Shown here: positions 1-7,011 of the stretch, piece by piece
How positions within the stretch are numbered: the first letter of the stretch is position 1
How the letters are laid out: every line of letters begins with the position of its first letter
Assembly (NCBI GenBank): GCA_030447865.1
Contig: JAUJOD010000001.1
Coordinates: 372,001 to 436,000 of the forward strand
Source: Nocardioidaceae bacterium
Lineage (GTDB): Bacteria > Actinomycetota > Actinomycetes > Propionibacteriales > Nocardioidaceae
Length of the DNA stretch: 64,000 bases
Reading direction: 5' to 3'
The notes under the pieces: model-generated
Told to the model about the DNA's origin: nothing
The model's database searches: none
Seen by the model: the letters and a program-made list of their open reading frames with translations, nothing else
Translations under genes and position numbers: made by a program

Positions 1-833
1 TCCGCCTCACGGATGGCCGTCACCATCGCGGCCAACTCCTTGGGCTCGAGGGCGAAGGGATGGTCTGGTCCGGGCTGGTCACGACTCAACGTGAAGTGCT
101 TCTCAATAATGCAGGCGCCGAGCGCCACTGCGACCACATCCGCGGTATGGCCCATCGAGTGGTCGCTCCAGCCGATGGGGATGTTGAAAGCGGCTGCGAG
201 GGTAGTGATCGCGCGCAGGTTGAGGTCGGCGAACTTCGGTGGGTAGTTGATGGCGCAGTGCAGAATAGCGATCTGGTCAGCCTTCGCGCCGTTGGCGGTA
301 TCGAGCGCCCGCTCGATGTCGCCGAGGCTTGCCATGCCGGTCGAGATGAGCAGCGGCTTGCCGGTGGCCGCACACTTCCCGATGAGCGGCAGGTGGTTGA
401 CCTCGTAGGACGCGATCTTGTACGCCGGGACGTCAAGCGACTCGAGGAGATCGACGGCCTCCTCCTGGAAGGGTGTGCTGAGAAAGTCGATGCCGCAGCC
501 CTTCGCGTGTTCGGCCAAGTCGCCGTGCCACTCCCAGGGAATCTCGACCCGCTTGATCAGATCCCAGACTGACTCCTGCTGCTCGAGCAGATCGGCGTCC
601 TTGAGGTACGACATCGTGGGGGTGTTGCGGCTGTAAAGGCCCTCTGCGGTGTAGGTCTGGAACTTGACGGCGTCCGCGCCCGCTTCGGCGGCCACCTCGA
701 TGAGGCGCTTGGCGGTGACAAGGTCGCGGTTGTGGTTGCTCCCGGCCTCGGCGATGACATACGCCGGACGCCCCGGCCCGACGAGTCGACCGGCGATGGG
801 GAAATCGCGGAGCCCATAGCTATGTGAACCCAT
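1..833 (-). CDS. pseI: Pseudaminic/nonulosonic acid synthase (PseI/NeuB family), 3' end cut by the window
   Basis: This enzyme condenses a 6-carbon amino sugar with phosphoenolpyruvate to make a nine-carbon nonulosonic acid. The 277 codons seen cover the TIM-barrel part; the C-terminal antifreeze-like (SAF) domain expected of the family would lie off the left edge. The N-terminus carries the family signature AEAGSNHNRD (about residues 23-32), followed by KFQTY and later STPF and KIAS blocks. The ATG at 833 is preceded by AAAGGAGG at 6-base spacing, so the start is firm. PseI is preferred over NeuB or legionaminate synthase because pseB, pseC, pseF and pseG lie next door; sequence alone does not separate these subfamilies. 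Confidence 0.88.
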   Translation of the reverse strand, partial: MGSHSYGLRDFPIAGRLVGPGRPAYVIAEAGSNHNRDLVTAKRLIEVAAEAGADAVKFQTYTAEGLYSRNTPTMSYLKDADLLEQQESVWDLIKRVEIPWEWHGDLAEHAKGCGIDFLSTPFQEEAVDLLESLDVPAYKIASYEVNHLPLIGKCAATGKPLLISTGMASLGDIERALDTANGAKADQIAILHCAINYPPKFADLNLRAITTLAAAFNIPIGWSDHSMGHTADVVAVALGACIIEKHFTLSRDQPGPDHPFALEPKELAAMVTAIREA

Positions 834-924: not shown

Positions 925-1851
925 ATGTGGCCCATGACATCGACTCTGAGCGCTGGAGTCGAGGAGGATGCGGGAGAGAAACCGCGGGTCGCGGCGCTGA
1001 CCATGGCGCGTGACGAGGCAGACATGCTGCCGCGCTGGATCGATTACTACGGTCGCCAGCTCGGCTCCGAGAACCTGATAGTTATCGATGACAACAGTGT
1101 TGACGGTTCCACCGAGAACTTGCCGTGCGCTGTGTACAGGATGCAGCCCGCGCCGTGGAAGTCGTCCTGGGTCGTTGCCCGGAGGAAGCTGGTCAGTGGC
1201 TTTGCTCGGGGACTCCTCGCCTGCTACGACGTGGTCCTTTACACCGATGTGGACGAGTACTTGGTGCCTGACCCCGTGCACTACGGCAGTCTCGCGCACT
1301 ACCTAAGTACGAACAGCGACCGCCCAGTTATTGCCGCGCTTGGCTTGAACGTTTTGCACAACCCCCGCTTTGAGCCGACGTTTGATCACAGCCGACCAAT
1401 CTTGGCACAACGCCGTTTCGTCAAGTTTTCCCCAGAGATGTGCAAGCCGCTCATCAAGCGAAGCCCGGCAGAGTGGTCTGCGGGCTTCCATGGCATAAAG
1501 TCCCCATTCGTCATCGACCGAGGGTTGCTGTTACTTCATTTGAAGTACTACGACATGTCGCGCTTAGCGGCGGTAGCGGAGCAGCGCCATTCTGTGTACC
1601 AGCAGGAGAGCCGAGGAAGCTCAGGCAGTGCCTGGGCCATCGGGGGTGACGAGCTTACCTCGCGGCTGCTCTCGTGGGTCCAGACTCCTCACGGGCAAGA
1701 CATCCCGGAGTTCGACCCGAACGAGCCCGACCTCAGTGACGTCGTCCAGCCCACTCGCCAGGGCGTCTATCGAAGCATGGGCGCTGACCTCACAGCCATG
1801 GAGGAGAACCCGCTTCGCCGGTTGCCCGGGGTCTTCCGCAATGTCCTCTGA
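925..1851 (+). CDS. Glycosyltransferase family 2 / GT92-like protein
   Basis: A 308-residue cytoplasmic protein resembling the Glyco_tranf_2_4/GT92 group. It has a GT-A style N-terminus with MARDEADMLPRW (about residues 27-38), the nucleotide-binding IDDNSVDGS (54-62) and the metal-binding acidic motif YTDVDEYL. A later HGIKSPF segment is typical of this group. It probably transfers a sugar during assembly of the surface glycan whose nonulosonic acid is made by the neighbouring pse genes. A GGAG sits 5 bases before the ATG at 925; a second ATG at 934 is possible. It is convergent with pseG, with an 11-base gap. The substrate is not predictable from sequence. Confidence 0.8.
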   Translation: MWPMTSTLSAGVEEDAGEKPRVAALTMARDEADMLPRWIDYYGRQLGSENLIVIDDNSVDGSTENLPCAVYRMQPAPWKSSWVVARRKLVSGFARGLLACYDVVLYTDVDEYLVPDPVHYGSLAHYLSTNSDRPVIAALGLNVLHNPRFEPTFDHSRPILAQRRFVKFSPEMCKPLIKRSPAEWSAGFHGIKSPFVIDRGLLLLHLKYYDMSRLAAVAEQRHSVYQQESRGSSGSAWAIGGDELTSRLLSWVQTPHGQDIPEFDPNEPDLSDVVQPTRQGVYRSMGADLTAMEENPLRRLPGVFRNVL

Positions 1852-1862
1852 CTCGATCCGCG

Positions 1863-2798
1863 TCACTCCACGCCAGCGGTCAAGGCTGCAACGATCCGGT
1901 GAGCTCCGCGCCCGTCTACGAGGGCCTGTGCCCGGTGCGAATGCGACTGGCGCGCCGTCCAGTCTGCGAGCCACCGCTGCACCCGCTCCTCAAGGAGCGC
2001 AGGTCGAGCGCTGACCTCTCGGCTCGTCCCCAGGCCGTGGACCACCTCTGCCTGCACCAACGCTTCGTAGTTGCCGCGTTGGTTGTCGGCGGCCCGGACT
2101 ATCGCGGTCGGCACGCCAAGATGACACAACTCATACACGCTGACGCCGGCAGCGCTGACGACTGCATCGGCCTCGGCCAGGGCCGTGATGGCGCCCAGCC
2201 CACGCTCGAGAGTGAGGAGGTCGACGCCCATGGCCGTCAAAACAGTGCGAAGGCGTTGTTCTAGTGGGCTATCACCGCCGCCGCCCAGGACAACGGCACC
2301 GCGTGTCACCTGCCCTGTGACCTGTCTGGGATCGCGGGCAAGGGCGCGGACCTGAGCCCGGATCGGCGCAAATGTGACACCCCGCAACAACGTGGCTGAC
2401 CCATCGTCGGGTCGCCACGCTGTCTGTGCCCCTAACCGGTAGTCGATGACGAAGTCTGCTGCCCGCCGCCCGAATCCGTCGTCCTCGAAGCTGGCCAGCA
2501 GCGAGCCCGCTCCGTGGATCGCTGCCCTAGCTTCGCCAATCTCGTAGGAGTCCAGCAACACGGCTTCAGCGCCGCGGCTATGCGCCAGGTTCGCCAGCGA
2601 AGCTACGTCAGGCGCCGGGGCGACCAACTCCACGCCGATGTCGGCGACCCACGGCTCCACCCAGCGGAGGTCTCCCAAGTCCGCGGCGAACACGACGGGG
2701 TGACCTGCGGCCGTGGCAGCTTCGGCCACCGCGAGCGACCGCATCACGTGCCCCGCCCCAACCGTGCTACCGCTCGCTGCTGCGATGACGAGCCGCAC
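1863..2798 (-). CDS. pseG: UDP-2,4-diacetamido-2,4,6-trideoxy-beta-L-altropyranose hydrolase (PseG-like)
   Basis: PseG removes UDP from the bacillosamine-type altrose nucleotide to give the free sugar used by PseI. The protein has a GT-B-like fold: an N-terminal GSTVGAGHVMRS loop (G-x-G-H-x-x-R, the presumed catalytic region) and a C-terminal half with VVSAAGVSVYELCHLGVP, typical of the MurG-like nucleotide-binding side. About 311 residues, so a stand-alone PseG without a fused PseH acetyltransferase domain. I chose the GTG at 2798, one base after the pseF stop; a TTG at 2813 overlapping pseF is also open. The tight spacing suggests translation coupled to pseF. Confidence 0.82.
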   Translation of the reverse strand: MRLVIAAASGSTVGAGHVMRSLAVAEAATAAGHPVVFAADLGDLRWVEPWVADIGVELVAPAPDVASLANLAHSRGAEAVLLDSYEIGEARAAIHGAGSLLASFEDDGFGRRAADFVIDYRLGAQTAWRPDDGSATLLRGVTFAPIRAQVRALARDPRQVTGQVTRGAVVLGGGGDSPLEQRLRTVLTAMGVDLLTLERGLGAITALAEADAVVSAAGVSVYELCHLGVPTAIVRAADNQRGNYEALVQAEVVHGLGTSREVSARPALLEERVQRWLADWTARQSHSHRAQALVDGRGAHRIVAALTAGVE

Positions 2799-2799
2799 G

Positions 2800-3528
2800 T
2801 CAGCCAGCCTCAAGGGACTTCTGCGCCACCGCCGCGTTTAGCTGGACGACGTCGCGCCGGGACCGTAGGAACGCGACAAGCTCCGCCCAGCCGACTATGC
2901 GGTCACCCAGCGCTTCGGTGACAGCCTGCAGCAACGCTAAGTCCTCGGCTGTGTCGAGGGTGACTCGAAGGTCGTCAGCCCTCGGCGCCACGCACAGCCC
3001 CAATAGCCGCCGGCCGGCGGGCTCCCTGTACAGCAAGCTGGTCACATGCTGGCGGTGAAACCCGACAGCCGACTCGTCGAGGCCACGCAACGTCGGCGCC
3101 GACACGAGTTCTACGTCGAGGCCACGCGGCAAGCTGCGCTGCAACGTCGTGGCCACGTACTCCCACGAGGGGTCGCTCCGCCACACCGCCACCACGAGGT
3201 CTACGAGTGAGGGGTCGAGCAACGGGCAGTCGGCGGTGATGCGCACCACCGCGTCAGCGGCGGTTTCCTCGAGGGCGAGTAGATATCGTGACAAGACGTC
3301 TCTCTCCGGCCCCCGGACACACCGGACGCCGTGCTGCGCGGCATACGCCGCCAACGCATCGTCACCAGCCTCAGTGCTGGTCGCAAGGACGATCTCGTCG
3401 AGCTCATCGCACGCCTCCAGCGACCGCGTCAGCCAACCGAGCACAGGACGACCGGCCAGCGGAGTGAGGACCTTCCTCGGTAGTCGTGTCGAACCCATTC
3501 GGGCCTGGATGACGGCGACGACGTGCAT
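2800..3528 (-). CDS. pseF: Cytidylyltransferase, CMP-pseudaminate synthase-like (PseF/SpsF)
   Basis: Predicted to activate the nonulosonic acid with CTP to the CMP-sugar donor. The N-terminus IQARMGSTRLPRKVL (about residues 6-20) is the nucleotide-binding signature of the SpsF/KdsB-type cytidylyltransferases, followed by RITADCPLLDP with the metal-binding aspartates. Length 242 residues, normal for the group. The open frame extends further upstream, but the ATG at 3528 has GGGAGG at 6-base spacing and matches the family N-terminus. It is divergent from pseB with a 164-base shared upstream region and is followed immediately by pseG. SpsF-like proteins also act on other sugars, so the substrate is inferred from the pse neighbours. 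Confidence 0.82.
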   Translation of the reverse strand: MHVVAVIQARMGSTRLPRKVLTPLAGRPVLGWLTRSLEACDELDEIVLATSTEAGDDALAAYAAQHGVRCVRGPERDVLSRYLLALEETAADAVVRITADCPLLDPSLVDLVVAVWRSDPSWEYVATTLQRSLPRGLDVELVSAPTLRGLDESAVGFHRQHVTSLLYREPAGRRLLGLCVAPRADDLRVTLDTAEDLALLQAVTEALGDRIVGWAELVAFLRSRRDVVQLNAAVAQKSLEAG

Positions 3529-3692
3529 AAGAATCCTCCCGTGTGGCGCGCGACGCCATTGCCGGTGCCAGCCAACGCCCGAGCTACTCCGTATCATTGC
3601 GTCTCACGCCGCCGATAGGCGAGGCAACTGACGACCGGGTGGCTCGGTTGCCCAGCGGACAAGACGTCGGCCCAGCGACGAAGGAAGTGTCC

Positions 3693-4676
3693 ATGTCGGC
3701 CCTCGCCGGATCCTCGATCCTCGTGACAGGCGGCACTGGTTCGTTCGGAAAGGCCTTCATCGAGTACGCGCTGACTCACCTCGGCCCCCGTCGGCTGGTG
3801 ATCTTGAGCCGCGACGAGCTCAAGCAGTACGAAGTACGACAACGGTTCGACGACGACCCGCGGTTGCGTTGGTTCATCGGTGACGTCCGCGACCGCCACC
3901 GCCTTGAGCGGGCCATGCACGGCGTCGACTACGTGATCCATGCGGCGGCTCTCAAGCAGGTCGACACGGCGGAGTACAACCCGTTCGAGTTCGTGCAGAC
4001 CAACGTCATCGGCTCGCAGCACGTCGTCGAGGCAGCGATCGACTGCGGGGTGAAGAAGGTCGTCGCGCTCTCCACCGATAAGGCGTCCAGCCCGATCAAC
4101 CTGTACGGCGCAACTAAGCTTTGTGCCGACCGGATCTTCATCGCCGCCAACCATTACGCGGCGGGTTATGAGACCCGGTTCTCCGTCGTTCGCTACGGCA
4201 ATGTGATGGGCAGTCGCGGGTCAGTAATCCCGCTCTTCCGGTCGCTGGCGGCCAAGGGACAGTCCCTGCCCATCACCGACAAGCGGATGACCCGGTTCTG
4301 GATCACCCTGCAACAGGCGGTGAGCTTCGTCGTCGACTCGTTCGACCAGATGAACGGCGGGGAGCTGTACGTGCCTCGTATCCCGAGCATGCGCATCATC
4401 GACCTGGCTGCAGCCATCGCCCCCACGGCTCCGATCCACGAGATCGGCATCCGCCCGGGTGAGAAGCTGCACGAGGAGATGATCGGCCCTGACGACTCCC
4501 GTCGGACGCTGCTGATGGACGGCCGGTACGTCGTGCTGCCGTACCTTGCCGGCTGGGGCTTCGTGCCCCCACCCGGAGGTGAACTCGTTCCTGAAGGCTT
4601 CGCCTACAGGTCGGACACCAACGACCTATGGCTCGGCGCGGAGGAGTTGCACGACCTTGTCGGGCGCTTGTCCTGA
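3693..4676 (+). CDS. pseB: UDP-N-acetylglucosamine 4,6-dehydratase (inverting), PseB
   Basis: First step of pseudaminic acid synthesis: an NADP-dependent extended short-chain dehydrogenase that dehydrates and C5-epimerises UDP-GlcNAc. The 327-residue protein begins with the Rossmann loop VTGGTGSFGK (11-20), then SRDELKQYE, the ALKQVDTAEYNPFE block and STDKASSPINLYGATK, which carries the catalytic T-D-K and the YxxxK-like residues. These are hallmarks of the PseB/FlaA1 group. The ATG at 3693 has AAGGAAG five bases upstream; the frame is open 50 codons further but that part is not conserved. A TATCAT box at 3592-3597 is a possible -10. pseC overlaps its last codons. Confidence 0.93.
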   Translation: MSALAGSSILVTGGTGSFGKAFIEYALTHLGPRRLVILSRDELKQYEVRQRFDDDPRLRWFIGDVRDRHRLERAMHGVDYVIHAAALKQVDTAEYNPFEFVQTNVIGSQHVVEAAIDCGVKKVVALSTDKASSPINLYGATKLCADRIFIAANHYAAGYETRFSVVRYGNVMGSRGSVIPLFRSLAAKGQSLPITDKRMTRFWITLQQAVSFVVDSFDQMNGGELYVPRIPSMRIIDLAAAIAPTAPIHEIGIRPGEKLHEEMIGPDDSRRTLLMDGRYVVLPYLAGWGFVPPPGGELVPEGFAYRSDTNDLWLGAEELHDLVGRLS

Positions 4677-5829
4677 CCCTCCGTCGTCGCGGCACAGCCA
4701 GCCGCTGCCGTACGGTCGCCAGTCTGTCTCAGAGCGCGACATCGCCGCGGTCGTCGAGATCCTGCAAGGGGACTGGTTGACCACCGGCCCCGCGGTCGGC
4801 CGCTTCGAGGACGCGCTTTCGGACCTGGCCGGCGCGCCCGCCGTTGTAGTCTCGTCCGGTACGGCCGCACTCCACACGGCGTACGCGGCCGCCGGAATCG
4901 GTCCCGGTGACGAGGTGGTGACGTCGCCGCTCACCTTTGTTGCCACGGCAGCGACGGCGGCGATGCTCGGTGCCACCGTGGTTTTCGTCGATGTCGAACC
5001 AGATACAGGGAATATCGATGCCGACGCCGCCGCAGCGGCAATGACGCGCTCGACAGCCGCCATCACCGGTGTCGACTACGCAGGACACCCCGTCGAGGCC
5101 GATGCGCTCAGCCGGCTCGCCCACAAACACGGCGCCGTGTTCGTCGAAGACGCCGCACACTCCATCGGGGGTAGTTGGCAGGGCCGCCCGGTCGGTTCAC
5201 TTGCCGACCTGACCACGTTCTCGTTCTACCCGACGAAGAACCTCACCACGGCCGAGGGTGGCGCGATCACCTCAACGGACGACGACTTGTTGGAGCGAGC
5301 ACGGCGGTTCCGCAACCACGGACTCGTGCGCAACCCGGCTGAGCAGCGCGAGCCCACTGAGGGTGGCTGGCACCAAGAGGTGCACTCGTTCGGCCTTAAC
5401 TACCGGCTGCCAGACGTCCTATGCGCGTTGGGGATATCGCAGTTGGCCCGGCTCGCCGTCTTCAAGAGCCGCCGGGCAGAGATCATCAAGGCCTACAACC
5501 AAGCCTTCGCTGACCTTGACGCGGTGAGCACGCCGCCTTGTCGCGAGGGTGCCGACCCGATGTGGCACCTCTATGCCCTGCGAGTGCACGACGGCCGGCG
5601 AGCTCAGCTGTACGACGCGCTGCGAGCGCAGGGAATCCTGGTGCAGGTCAACTACCTCCCCGTGCACTGGCATCCGGTCTTCGCCGACCTCGGCTACCGG
5701 CGGGGCATCTGCCCGCGGGCCGAGCAGTTCTACGCACAGCAACTGTCCTTGCCGCTGTTCCCCGAAATGACCGGCAACGATGTGGAGCGAGTCGCCTCAG
5801 CCGTACGGGCGTTCTTCGGACAACCGTGA
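4657..5829 (+). CDS. pseC: UDP-4-amino-4,6-dideoxy-N-acetyl-beta-L-altrosamine transaminase (PseC)
   Basis: Second step of the pathway: a PLP enzyme of the DegT/DnrJ/EryC1 family that aminates the PseB product. Family landmarks are LPYGRQSVSERD near the N-terminus, GDWLTTGP, SSGTAAL, VEDAAHSIGG and the PLP-lysine motif YPTKNLTTAEGG. About 390 residues from the TTG at 4657, which has GGAGGAG ten bases upstream and overlaps pseB by 20 bases; a CTG nearer the conserved LPYG is an alternative. The overlap argues for coupled translation with pseB. The last 33 bases overlap the convergent coiled-coil gene. Confidence 0.9.
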   Translation: MSGACPDPPSSRHSQPLPYGRQSVSERDIAAVVEILQGDWLTTGPAVGRFEDALSDLAGAPAVVVSSGTAALHTAYAAAGIGPGDEVVTSPLTFVATAATAAMLGATVVFVDVEPDTGNIDADAAAAAMTRSTAAITGVDYAGHPVEADALSRLAHKHGAVFVEDAAHSIGGSWQGRPVGSLADLTTFSFYPTKNLTTAEGGAITSTDDDLLERARRFRNHGLVRNPAEQREPTEGGWHQEVHSFGLNYRLPDVLCALGISQLARLAVFKSRRAEIIKAYNQAFADLDAVSTPPCREGADPMWHLYALRVHDGRRAQLYDALRAQGILVQVNYLPVHWHPVFADLGYRRGICPRAEQFYAQQLSLPLFPEMTGNDVERVASAVRAFFGQP

Positions 5830-6270
5830 TGTCACGGCCTCGACCTGCTCCTCGAGCTTGCGGAGCCGGTCCTCGTACCACGCAACACCACTCAGCCGGG
5901 CGCGGACTCGGTCGTGCTCACGGCGTACCTCCTCAACGACCGAGCGCGCCTCCGCCACCTCCTCAGTTGTTCCGGTCACTGGCCCCGAGCCGCTTTGCTG
6001 CTGGGAGAATCGGACCTCGAGAGCCTCCAACTGCGGGATGAGCCGTTGGAGTAGGGAAGCGCCGGTCGCCGCCTCGCGAGACACCTTGTCGAGATCCCGT
6101 CGCTGACGCTTGAGCCGGCTGTCGATGTCGGCGAGACGGCGGTCGTACTCAGCGAAGCGTCGCTCCGCCACCTCGTTGACTCGCGACTGAAGCGCGTCAT
6201 CAAGCCGTCCAGTCAACCGGCCCGGACGCGAGTGGGCGTCCCGGCCAGGCTGGAGCGACTTGTCCGGCAT
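5797..6270 (-). CDS. Coiled-coil protein of unknown function
   Basis: A 157-residue hydrophilic protein rich in Arg, Glu and Leu, with heptad-like spacing through about residues 20-75 and 105-150, predicting two long coiled coils around a short Gly/Ser/Thr-rich break. No signal peptide or membrane segment is visible and I recognise no family. The start is firm: GGAGG lies 6 bases before the ATG at 6270. It follows the GT29-like gene by 39 bases on the same strand and probably shares its transcript, which hints at a role in glycan assembly. Its 3' end overlaps convergent pseC by 33 bases. Confidence 0.65.
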   Translation of the reverse strand: MPDKSLQPGRDAHSRPGRLTGRLDDALQSRVNEVAERRFAEYDRRLADIDSRLKRQRRDLDKVSREAATGASLLQRLIPQLEALEVRFSQQQSGSGPVTGTTEEVAEARSVVEEVRREHDRVRARLSGVAWYEDRLRKLEEQVEAVTSRLSEERPYG

Positions 6271-6309: not shown

Positions 6310-7011
6310 TCAGGAGAGCAAGCGTATCCGCCCTTCATCGATCCATGCCGCCAACAGCCGACCCTCACGAGCGATGTGGTGCTCGGAGCCAACCGGGCAC
6401 GAGTCTCCCCACGCGTGCCGCCACTCGGTCTGGTCGGGCCGGTCGATCATCGAGAAGCCCGCGATCATGATCTCGGCCGCCGGAAACAGCATCATCGCGA
6501 CCCACACGGACATCAGGCCGGTGGTCGGCCACTCACGTCGGTTACGGCTATCGAGACCCAGCAGTTGAGACAGCGTCAGCGTCACCTCGCGGTTGGGTAC
6601 GTTGGCGATGCCGAGGTCAGCGGGCCACCATCTCGGTCGGCGGGTCGGCTCACGGTAGAGTCGGCCGGGCTCGACCACGAGGTAGAGCCGCTCGCGGTAG
6701 TGGTCGAAGACGAATGGCGTCGCGCGAAGCCCCCGGTTGAACACCACCACATCGACGCGGGCGCCCTGCTGCGGCGGCGTGTCTGGGGTGTCAAGGATGA
6801 AGCTGTTACAGCGGAAGACGACATCGCACCGATCGATGGCTGCCGCACGCTGGGGCGACGGCTCGAGGGGAGCGTTGCCGACGACCGCGATCAAGCGGAC
6901 GTCGGGACTCCGTGCGTATGCGGTCACCATCAGGCGGAGGTAATCCAGAGTCGAGGAGATCTCGACGTCGCTGGAGCATGCGACGGACCGGTGGGGATTC
7001 ACTCCCATCAC
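6310..7011 (-). CDS. GT29-like (sialyltransferase-fold) putative nonulosonyltransferase
   Basis: A 233-residue cytoplasmic protein with the order of motifs seen in GT29 sialyltransferases: VVGN (43-46) plus ID-x-x-DVVFRCNSF (59-71) resembling the L motif, PTTG...IMIAGFSM (162-188) resembling the S motif, and HHIARE (211-216) resembling the H-x4-E VS motif. These bind a CMP-nonulosonic acid donor, which the adjacent pse genes would supply. The obvious hypothesis is transfer of pseudaminic acid to a surface polymer. The start is GTG at 7011 or ATG at 7008; no strong ribosome-binding site is seen. Other families share a VVGN...PTTG pattern, so the assignment is moderate. Confidence 0.6.
   Translation of the reverse strand: MMGVNPHRSVACSSDVEISSTLDYLRLMVTAYARSPDVRLIAVVGNAPLEPSPQRAAAIDRCDVVFRCNSFILDTPDTPPQQGARVDVVVFNRGLRATPFVFDHYRERLYLVVEPGRLYREPTRRPRWWPADLGIANVPNREVTLTLSQLLGLDSRNRREWPTTGLMSVWVAMMLFPAAEIMIAGFSMIDRPDQTEWRHAWGDSCPVGSEHHIAREGRLLAAWIDEGRIRLLS

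Follow-up and report, generated by a model that had tools for sequence, protein, structure and literature searches.

A compact actinobacterial branch of GT29 glycosyltransferases encoded beside nonulosonate pathway genes and a coiled-coil partner gene

Within a 64,000-nucleotide stretch of DNA from a Nocardioidaceae bacterium (the window), a 233-residue open reading frame on the minus strand encodes a compact relative of animal sialyltransferases (family GT29). It belongs to an actinobacterial branch in which gene linkage points to three donor pathways: pseudaminate (Pse), Neu5Ac, and Kdn-like. The gene is paired throughout the branch with one for a coiled-coil protein (CC). As a relative of sialyltransferases that lies beside nonulosonate genes and shares CC with its relatives, the protein probably attaches the sialic-acid-like sugar made by those genes to the cell envelope. 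We propose, at odds of roughly three in four, that it is a soluble, single-domain, inverting CMP-nonulosonate transferase, here a pseudaminyltransferase, which would act on an envelope glycan or glycolipid and be positioned by CC. Few pseudaminyltransferases have been characterised, and what is known of GT29 biochemistry comes mostly from animals. The linkage to donor pathways and the CC pairing are new here; the only bacterial GT29 survey that we found is of proteobacteria (Petit et al. 2018, PMC5811610).

RESULTS

A GT29-type gene within a pseudaminate cluster

The genes around the open reading frame are as follows.

1..833, minus strand: PseI/NeuB-like nonulosonate synthase, cut by the left window edge (244 bases lie beyond it)
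925..1851, plus strand: family-2-like glycosyltransferase within the cluster (PF13704, E 1.1e-10)
1863..2813, minus strand: PseG-like UDP-sugar hydrolase (TIGR03590, E 4.6e-22, 78.9 bits against a cut-off of 153.55)
2800..3597, minus strand: PseF-like CMP-sugar synthetase (cytidylyltransferase; PF02348, E 1.6e-24; TIGR03584, only 22.2 bits against 205.7)
3543..4676, plus strand: PseB, UDP-GlcNAc 4,6-dehydratase (inverting), start probably near 3693 (TIGR03589, 477.4 bits against 407.75)
4546..5829, plus strand: PseC-like aminotransferase, start probably near 4711 (TIGR03588, 421.8 bits against 423.5, 1.7 under)
5797..6270, minus strand: coiled-coil partner CC, 157 aa, two predicted long helices (residues 16 to 93 and 102 to 152)
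6310..7011, minus strand: GT29-type glycosyltransferase, predicted CMP-pseudaminate transferase, 233 aa (PF00777; AlphaFold2 model)

The GT29 reading frame is intact, with candidate starts at GTG 7011 and ATG 7008. PF00777 (Glyco_transf_29) is the only Pfam family that matches it, above the gathering score (E 1.8e-5, 24.7 bits against a cut-off of 23); NCBIfam gave no match for it. A preliminary description of this DNA had claimed the motif order of GT29 for the protein. The motifs lie in that order, with VVGN at residues 43 to 46, ID..DVVFR.NSF at 59 to 71, PTTG...IMIAGFS at 162 to 187, and HHIARE at 211 to 216, and the PF00777 score places the resemblance beyond chance. The protein lacks an N-terminal hydrophobic anchor; its hydropathy peak begins at residue 166, within a helix of the fold.

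Sequence-only searches of PDB chains gave weak matches, indicating that the kinship to animal GT29 is remote in sequence. Phmmer with the single sequence found only ST8Sia3 (E 0.36). A profile of 16 relatives placed ST6Gal1 (E 0.0037) and ST8Sia3 (E 0.011) on top, and the first 8 of its 11 matches were GT29. With a profile of 42 relatives, the first five matches were GT29 (best E 0.0064), followed by avidins (E 0.7 to 0.9) and one further GT29. At E<=1, PF00777 was matched by all 16 relatives of the smaller set and by 36 of the 42 in the larger one, six having no match.

The preliminary description had also placed CMP-pseudaminate synthesis next door, and homologues of all six of PseB, C, H, G, I, and F do adjoin the GT29 gene. 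Only PseB scores over its curated cut-off; PseC and PseI fall less than 2 bits short, and PseF, PseG, and PseH fall far short. The PseI-like synthase is 1.5 bits under the PseI cut-off and scores higher as NeuB, also under cut-off, while KdsB-type models outscore TIGR03584 on the PseF-like gene. A PseH-like acetyltransferase gene, well under its cut-off, follows the PseI-like gene outside the window. In the region from window position -2635 to about 9900, the pse cluster sits between the housekeeping genes panC and lysS, so read by eye, and a glycine-betaine (OpuAC-type) ABC transporter operon. Pfam confirmed OpuAC in locus L025 and in L018, which is nearly identical to the window.

The predicted fold is nearest to GT29

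An AlphaFold2 model built from the 16-row alignment has a mean pLDDT of 86.3 and a pTM of 0.85. All 29 Foldseek matches in the PDB at E<=0.001 are mammalian GT29 chains, with moderate query TM-scores (0.44 to 0.61), and no GT42 structure is among the 50 matches listed. Among the matches listed by VIA-align, the first 14 entries are GT29 (Z 11.8 to 16.0), the best being ST3Gal1 (2wnf; Z 16.0, 3.2 A, 183 residues), and ST3Gal1, ST6GalNAc2, and ST6Gal1 all rank above ST8Sia3. The GT42 enzymes CstI and CstII, whose donor is CMP-sialic acid, have a related fold and appear lower in the same list (Z 8.6 to 10.4), with the unrelated HPPK (Z 10.1) in between. The predicted fold is thus of the GT29/GT42 kind with GT29 nearest, and the model has the GT-A variant 2 fold of solved GT29s. 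Identity to the mammalian GT29 structures is 18 to 20% over aligned residues.

Active-site motifs are largely conserved

Four segments of the protein, all on the minus strand, correspond to the sialylmotifs.

6739..6894: equivalent of sialylmotif L, about residues 40 to 91 (N46, D60, R67, N69), from alignments to ST8Sia3 and ST6Gal1 and from conservation
6451..6528: equivalent of sialylmotif S, residues 162 to 187 (PTTG...AGFS), from conservation and a register common with L062
6406..6423: candidate equivalent of motif III, residues 197 to 202, W-x-H-x-W-G replacing W-x-H-Y-Y, from conservation and the L062 register
6364..6381: motif VS, H211-x4-E216, with the predicted catalytic base His211, from conservation and the registers of ST8Sia3 (SHQLPAE) and L062

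Two alignments were used. A1 has 16 rows; L011 was excluded for an in-frame stop, and L001 is the window itself. A2 has 42 rows, comprising 38 of 39 loci (L055 was excluded, as the contig cuts its gene), the second copy of L031, L008, L016, and the window; its row L018 is almost identical to that of the window. Invariant in all 42 rows of A2 are N46, D60, R67, G165, G185, S187, H211, and E216, so that H-x4-E and the L-motif residues Asn46 and Arg67 are kept in every homologue aligned. This conservation and the predicted fold both agree with the GT29 kinship claimed in the preliminary description. In motif S, T163 (41/42) and T164 (40/42) are nearly constant, with P162 kept in only 26 rows and F186 in only 18. 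In motif III, H199 is found in 35 rows (Y in the other 7) and W197 in 28 (Phe or Leu in 14); the two tyrosines of H-Y-Y are not kept, their positions being A, Q, or H and then mostly W. Neither of the positions equivalent to the cysteines of the animal L-S disulphide carries a cysteine in any of the 42 rows. The VS register agrees with the alignment to ST8Sia3, though this stretch scores below zero when taken alone. L062, an intermediate actinobacterial GT29 domain with the full HYYD, aligns with an hhalign probability of 96% and supports the S, III, and VS registers.

Residue 69 is Asn in 28 rows of A2 and Thr in 14. Every one of the 25 Pse rows has Asn there, and 14 of the 17 Neu and Kdn-like rows have Thr, marking a possible donor-linked site that is confounded with descent.

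Human ST3Gal1 offers a functional reading of these residues. As described for that enzyme (PMC6884586), the CMP phosphate is bound by N147 and N170, the latter also being able to bond the C8-OH of the sugar, while W297 stacks on cytidine and S268/T269 contact the sugar. H299 is given there as the acid and H316 as the base, the latter in an H-x4-E motif with E321; H299A and Y300A mutants are inactive, and N170A is much weaker. Counterparts of the functional residues so described occur in the same order in our protein, with equal local spacing for S/T-T-G, W-x-H, and H-x4-E, and we propose N46, N69, W197, T163/T164, H199, and H211 as the equivalents. Strict equivalence is countered by the position of Y300, needed in ST3Gal1 by that account, which is A, Q, or H among the relatives in A2. 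The changes at N69, H199, and W197 in some rows also speak against the proposed function.

Relatives occur in five named families and are rare in a class-wide sample

Scanning contigs of whole genomes yielded 39 GT29 loci in 38 genomes (L018 and L050 belong to one assembly). Hosts are Nocardioidaceae, Amycolatopsis, Gandjariella, Actinokineospora, Blastococcus, Thermomonospora, Amnibacterium, another Microbacteriaceae genome, and unplaced actinobacteria. The homologues are 39 to 96% identical across these loci, which represent five named families and unplaced genomes. A protein search within the same bacterial family found 17 copies in 15 of 197 genomes. Profile scans matched 7 of 394 genomes of the class (4 strongly, the own genome included) and 2 of 196 genomes of the order (own included), indicating that the gene is rare. 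A six-frame PF00777 scan missed the window's own gene, and in the phylum it matched 2 of 396 genomes and missed the own genome again; such family-model scans therefore undercount the actinobacterial branch. No relatives were found in viral contigs, plasmids, or phages. Three genomes (G001, G031, and that of L031) carry two GT29 copies, and in the L011/L028 relative a stop lies near the 5' end, ahead of the conserved part.

L018 (G001:C30) is a 15-kb contig 98% identical to the window throughout and therefore does not count as independent evidence. The genome that contains it is assigned to a different genus and also has a distant second copy of GT29, so that the near-identity perhaps reflects a misbinned contig or a recent transfer. 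A flanking DUF2520 gene (73% identity) was considered as the edge of a transferred cassette and rejected, given the 98% identity across all 15 kb.

The preliminary description had suggested a pseudaminyltransferase of an undescribed bacterial branch. In searches of open-licence PMC papers, mostly by ranked listings, we found no account of the actinobacterial branch, nor any description of a GT29 pseudaminyltransferase or of a GT29 coiled-coil pairing. GT29 as such was already known from bacteria, namely, alpha-, gamma-, and epsilon-proteobacteria, whose proteins are described as keeping the sialylmotifs and lacking both anchor and disulphide cysteines (PMC5811610). By that paper's description, the protein of the window resembles them in all these respects. 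The actinobacterial proteins differ in their hosts and in a gene linkage that suggests donors; the trees in that paper are stated not to have permitted function prediction, and its main text does not contain "actinobacteri," "nocardioid," or "amycolatopsis."

The branch is linked to three donor pathways

Nonulosonate genes accompany GT29 at all 39 loci: in flanks of up to 10 kb at 32, within 20 kb at 4 (L034, L037, L039, and L041), and on another contig at 3 (L036, L046, and L055). A genome-wide search, which covered 30 of the 38 genomes with GT29 loci, matched NeuB in 30 of 30 and strongly in 29, with a strong NeuB on the GT29 contig within 17 kb in 24. The exception, Thermomonospora echinospora, has a contig that stops inside the CMP-synthetase gene near GT29. 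In the family sample, 13 of 15 GT29 genomes have a strong NeuB, compared to 43 of the 182 others (Fisher p 1.7e-6, an overstatement since the genomes are related). The two GT29 genomes without one are 77 to 84% complete assemblies in which GT29 adjoins pse genes.

Pathway type varies with lineage. Nocardioidaceae loci have pse genes, the label of L036 coming from its likeness to Nocardioides albus and a PseI-like match. Loci of Amycolatopsis, Gandjariella, Blastococcus, and three Actinokineospora have NeuC, NeuB, and a CMP-synthetase, that is, the Neu5Ac pathway; these labels derive from family models for one Amycolatopsis, where NeuC passed its cut-off and NeuB did not, and for one Blastococcus synthase, with tblastn for the others. 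The loci that we call Kdn-like have a fusion of CMP-synthetase and phosphatase; they are those of Actinokineospora enzanensis, Amnibacterium, the Microbacteriaceae genome, an unplaced actinomycete, and Thermomonospora (cut by the contig end). For the phosphatase half of L054, the one scanned, the KdsC model gives 101.3 bits and that for KDN-9-phosphate phosphatase 86.5 bits, all scores being below cut-offs.

In a tree of the A2 rows, the 25 Pse rows form one side of a branch (support 82/85), and the Neu and Kdn-like rows interleave. All 25 come from one bacterial family, so that donor and descent are confounded. The A. enzanensis GT29 groups with its Neu5Ac congeners (support 89/91), suggesting that the donor may have changed while the transferase was kept; this change is not certain, as a further strong NeuB lies on a different contig of that genome. 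Pseudaminate is likely the donor only in the Nocardioidaceae branch, with the same enzyme type lying beside Neu5Ac and Kdn-like pathways elsewhere.

A coiled-coil gene accompanies all 42 aligned GT29 genes

The CC gene lies just downstream of GT29 in 42 of 42 rows, 41 of them found in a first pass with the window sequence alone; later passes used a model made from those same CC genes. Neither the single sequence nor the final model found any other CC match in the loci among 7,299 ORF segments, a count that leaves out matches in L058 and L059. In the 197-genome family sample, strong CC matches (E<=3.1e-19) occur in 15 of 15 GT29 genomes and in none of the 182 others, with 17 CC copies to 17 of GT29; six other genomes have weak matches only (E 1e-4 or worse). 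Counted from the first possible start codon in 39 of the 42 rows, the start and stop of the two genes overlap by 4 or 10 bases in 29, and gaps of 7 to 85 bases separate them in the other 10. The gap in the window is 39 bases.

The CC model shows two long helices (pLDDT 85.8, pTM 0.43). Among 18 aligned proteins, CC length ranges from 111 to 214 aa, with starts unverified, and the common part is the C-terminal EVRxEHxRxRARL...YEERLRRLE. CC may form a complex with GT29, and a faithful partner of this kind is open to experiment. In the Nocardioides albus group (L034, L036, L037, L039, and L041), the next gene after the GT29-CC pair encodes a family-2 glycosyltransferase, of about 767 aa in L039.

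Proposed function and alternative explanations

In the proposed mechanism, the donor is a CMP-activated nonulosonic acid, in this genome most likely CMP-pseudaminate from the neighbouring genes, and a hydroxyl group on an envelope glycan or glycolipid would receive the sugar. His211 would act as the base and His199 would help the leaving group, with the CMP phosphate held by Asn46 and Asn69, the cytosine stacked against Trp197, and the co-encoded CC positioning the transferase. Inverting transfer with a His base would follow the GT29 mechanism as published (PMC8433944).

Flagellin was rejected as the acceptor; the own genome has no flagellin match, which makes an envelope acceptor likelier. 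Maf and other-family pseudaminyltransferases share the predicted CMP-Pse donor and have a different fold. PF01973 (DUF115), the family to which Maf belongs, had no match in the own genome, a weak test whose control matched only in archaea. At ten Pseudonocardiaceae loci (L026, L027, L033, L040, L045, L049, L042 to L044, and L047), the cluster adjoins GlfT1 and the galactan-export genes Wzm/Wzt, labels given by family models on L040 and by tblastn on the others. A neighbouring family-2 transferase of N. insulae matches a TarS-linker model, with a score below cut-off. A Kdn-containing wall polymer has been reported in Streptomyces coelicolor (PMC7831098). Together, these observations hint at an envelope polymer as the acceptor.

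How firmly the protein is placed in GT29 can be judged against two other readings. The region is crowded with overlapping ORFs on both strands, which would allow for a chance motif match in a spurious ORF; this has a negligible likelihood and is rejected by conservation, as homologues exist at 39 loci, the catalytic residues are kept, and the model is of high confidence. Membership in GT42 (the Campylobacter CstII type) is also rejected as very improbable. GT42 structures do share the fold, and a small protein with neither the animal disulphide nor the anchor could fit there, but all 14 GT29 entries listed by VIA-align outrank every GT42 entry, Foldseek has none among its 50 listed matches, and PF00777 is the sole Pfam match. 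H-x4-E is, in the published descriptions, a GT29 motif, and the sialylmotifs are described as weakly conserved in GT42 (PMC5811610).

Two further readings accept the GT29 fold. The enzyme might make a poly- or oligo-nonulosonate chain, like some ST8Sia, rather than adding a single residue. ST8Sia3 was the best match in two of three PDB sequence searches and second in the other, no second transferase is common to all clusters (a family-2 gene occurs at 8 of 39 loci), and three genomes have the two GT29 copies mentioned above. The fold comparison, however, ranks three other sialyltransferases above ST8Sia3, and Wzm/Wzt export genes were recognised beside only 10 of 39 loci, leaving chain synthesis distinctly unlikely. 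We consider it less likely again that the protein uses another donor or has lost activity, with the nonulosonate moved by another enzyme, for instance the family-2-like transferase at 925 to 1851. The presence of that second transferase gene in the cluster and the variation of H199 and N69 among relatives would fit. However, tblastn did not find the gene at the other linked loci, its sole match being L018/L058, a single contig that is almost the same as the window in sequence; moreover, GT29 accompanies three nonulosonate pathways and the catalytic His and Glu are invariant. Transfer of a single nonulosonate, here pseudaminate, to an envelope acceptor remains our preferred reading.

A tentative extension, which we regard as unlikely, is that GT29 and CC together make up a two-protein capping device in actinobacterial envelopes. 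The variable-length CC would set the distance of the transferase from the chain-building enzymes, and a terminal nonulosonate cap (Pse, Neu5Ac, or Kdn-like by lineage) would set chain length. The analogy is with the Klebsiella O-antigen chain terminators ORF7-O4 (of GT137) and WbbB, in which, as described (PMC11231755), a CMP-Kdo transferase is likewise combined with a long coiled coil that sets glycan length. There the coiled coil is within the transferase protein and its role is reported as shown, whereas here it is encoded by a separate gene, the transferase fold is GT29, and a terminator role is conjectural. If true, Gram-positive bacteria would have, in GT29, a counterpart of the CMP-Kdo terminators and their coiled-coil rulers; pseudaminyltransferases would enter GT29; and the origin proposed for eukaryotic GT29, proteobacterial and linked to mitochondria, could be weighed against a further bacterial branch.

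Comparison with other GT29 proteins

Mammalian GT29 enzymes (ST3Gal1, ST6GalNAc2, ST6Gal1, and ST8Sia3) share with the actinobacterial protein the predicted fold, the motif order L-S-III-VS (with motif III kept only in part), H-x4-E, and, as described for them, CMP-binding Asn residues. The actinobacterial protein differs in its length of 233 aa, in lacking the anchor and the L-S disulphide, in having H-x-W-G for H-Y-Y, and in the presence of bacterial donor genes and a CC partner gene. The disulphide has been termed completely conserved in GT29 (PMC6884586). Because this compact, soluble branch is linked to three CMP-nonulosonate pathways, donor choice in GT29 can be studied on small enzymes that require neither a disulphide nor a membrane, and a Gram-positive branch bears on the origin of animal sialyltransferases. 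GT29 genes have been reported as more numerous in a deep forest soil metagenome (PMC8921678).

Two other actinobacterial proteins carry GT29 domains. In L062 (844 to 3147, plus strand), at least 768 aa long, a GT29 domain with HYYD and H-x4-E is fused to a group-1 glycosyltransferase domain. In L063 (1093 to 2574, minus strand), from the same class and a different family, the GT29 domain lies behind an N-terminal half with weak TPR matches.
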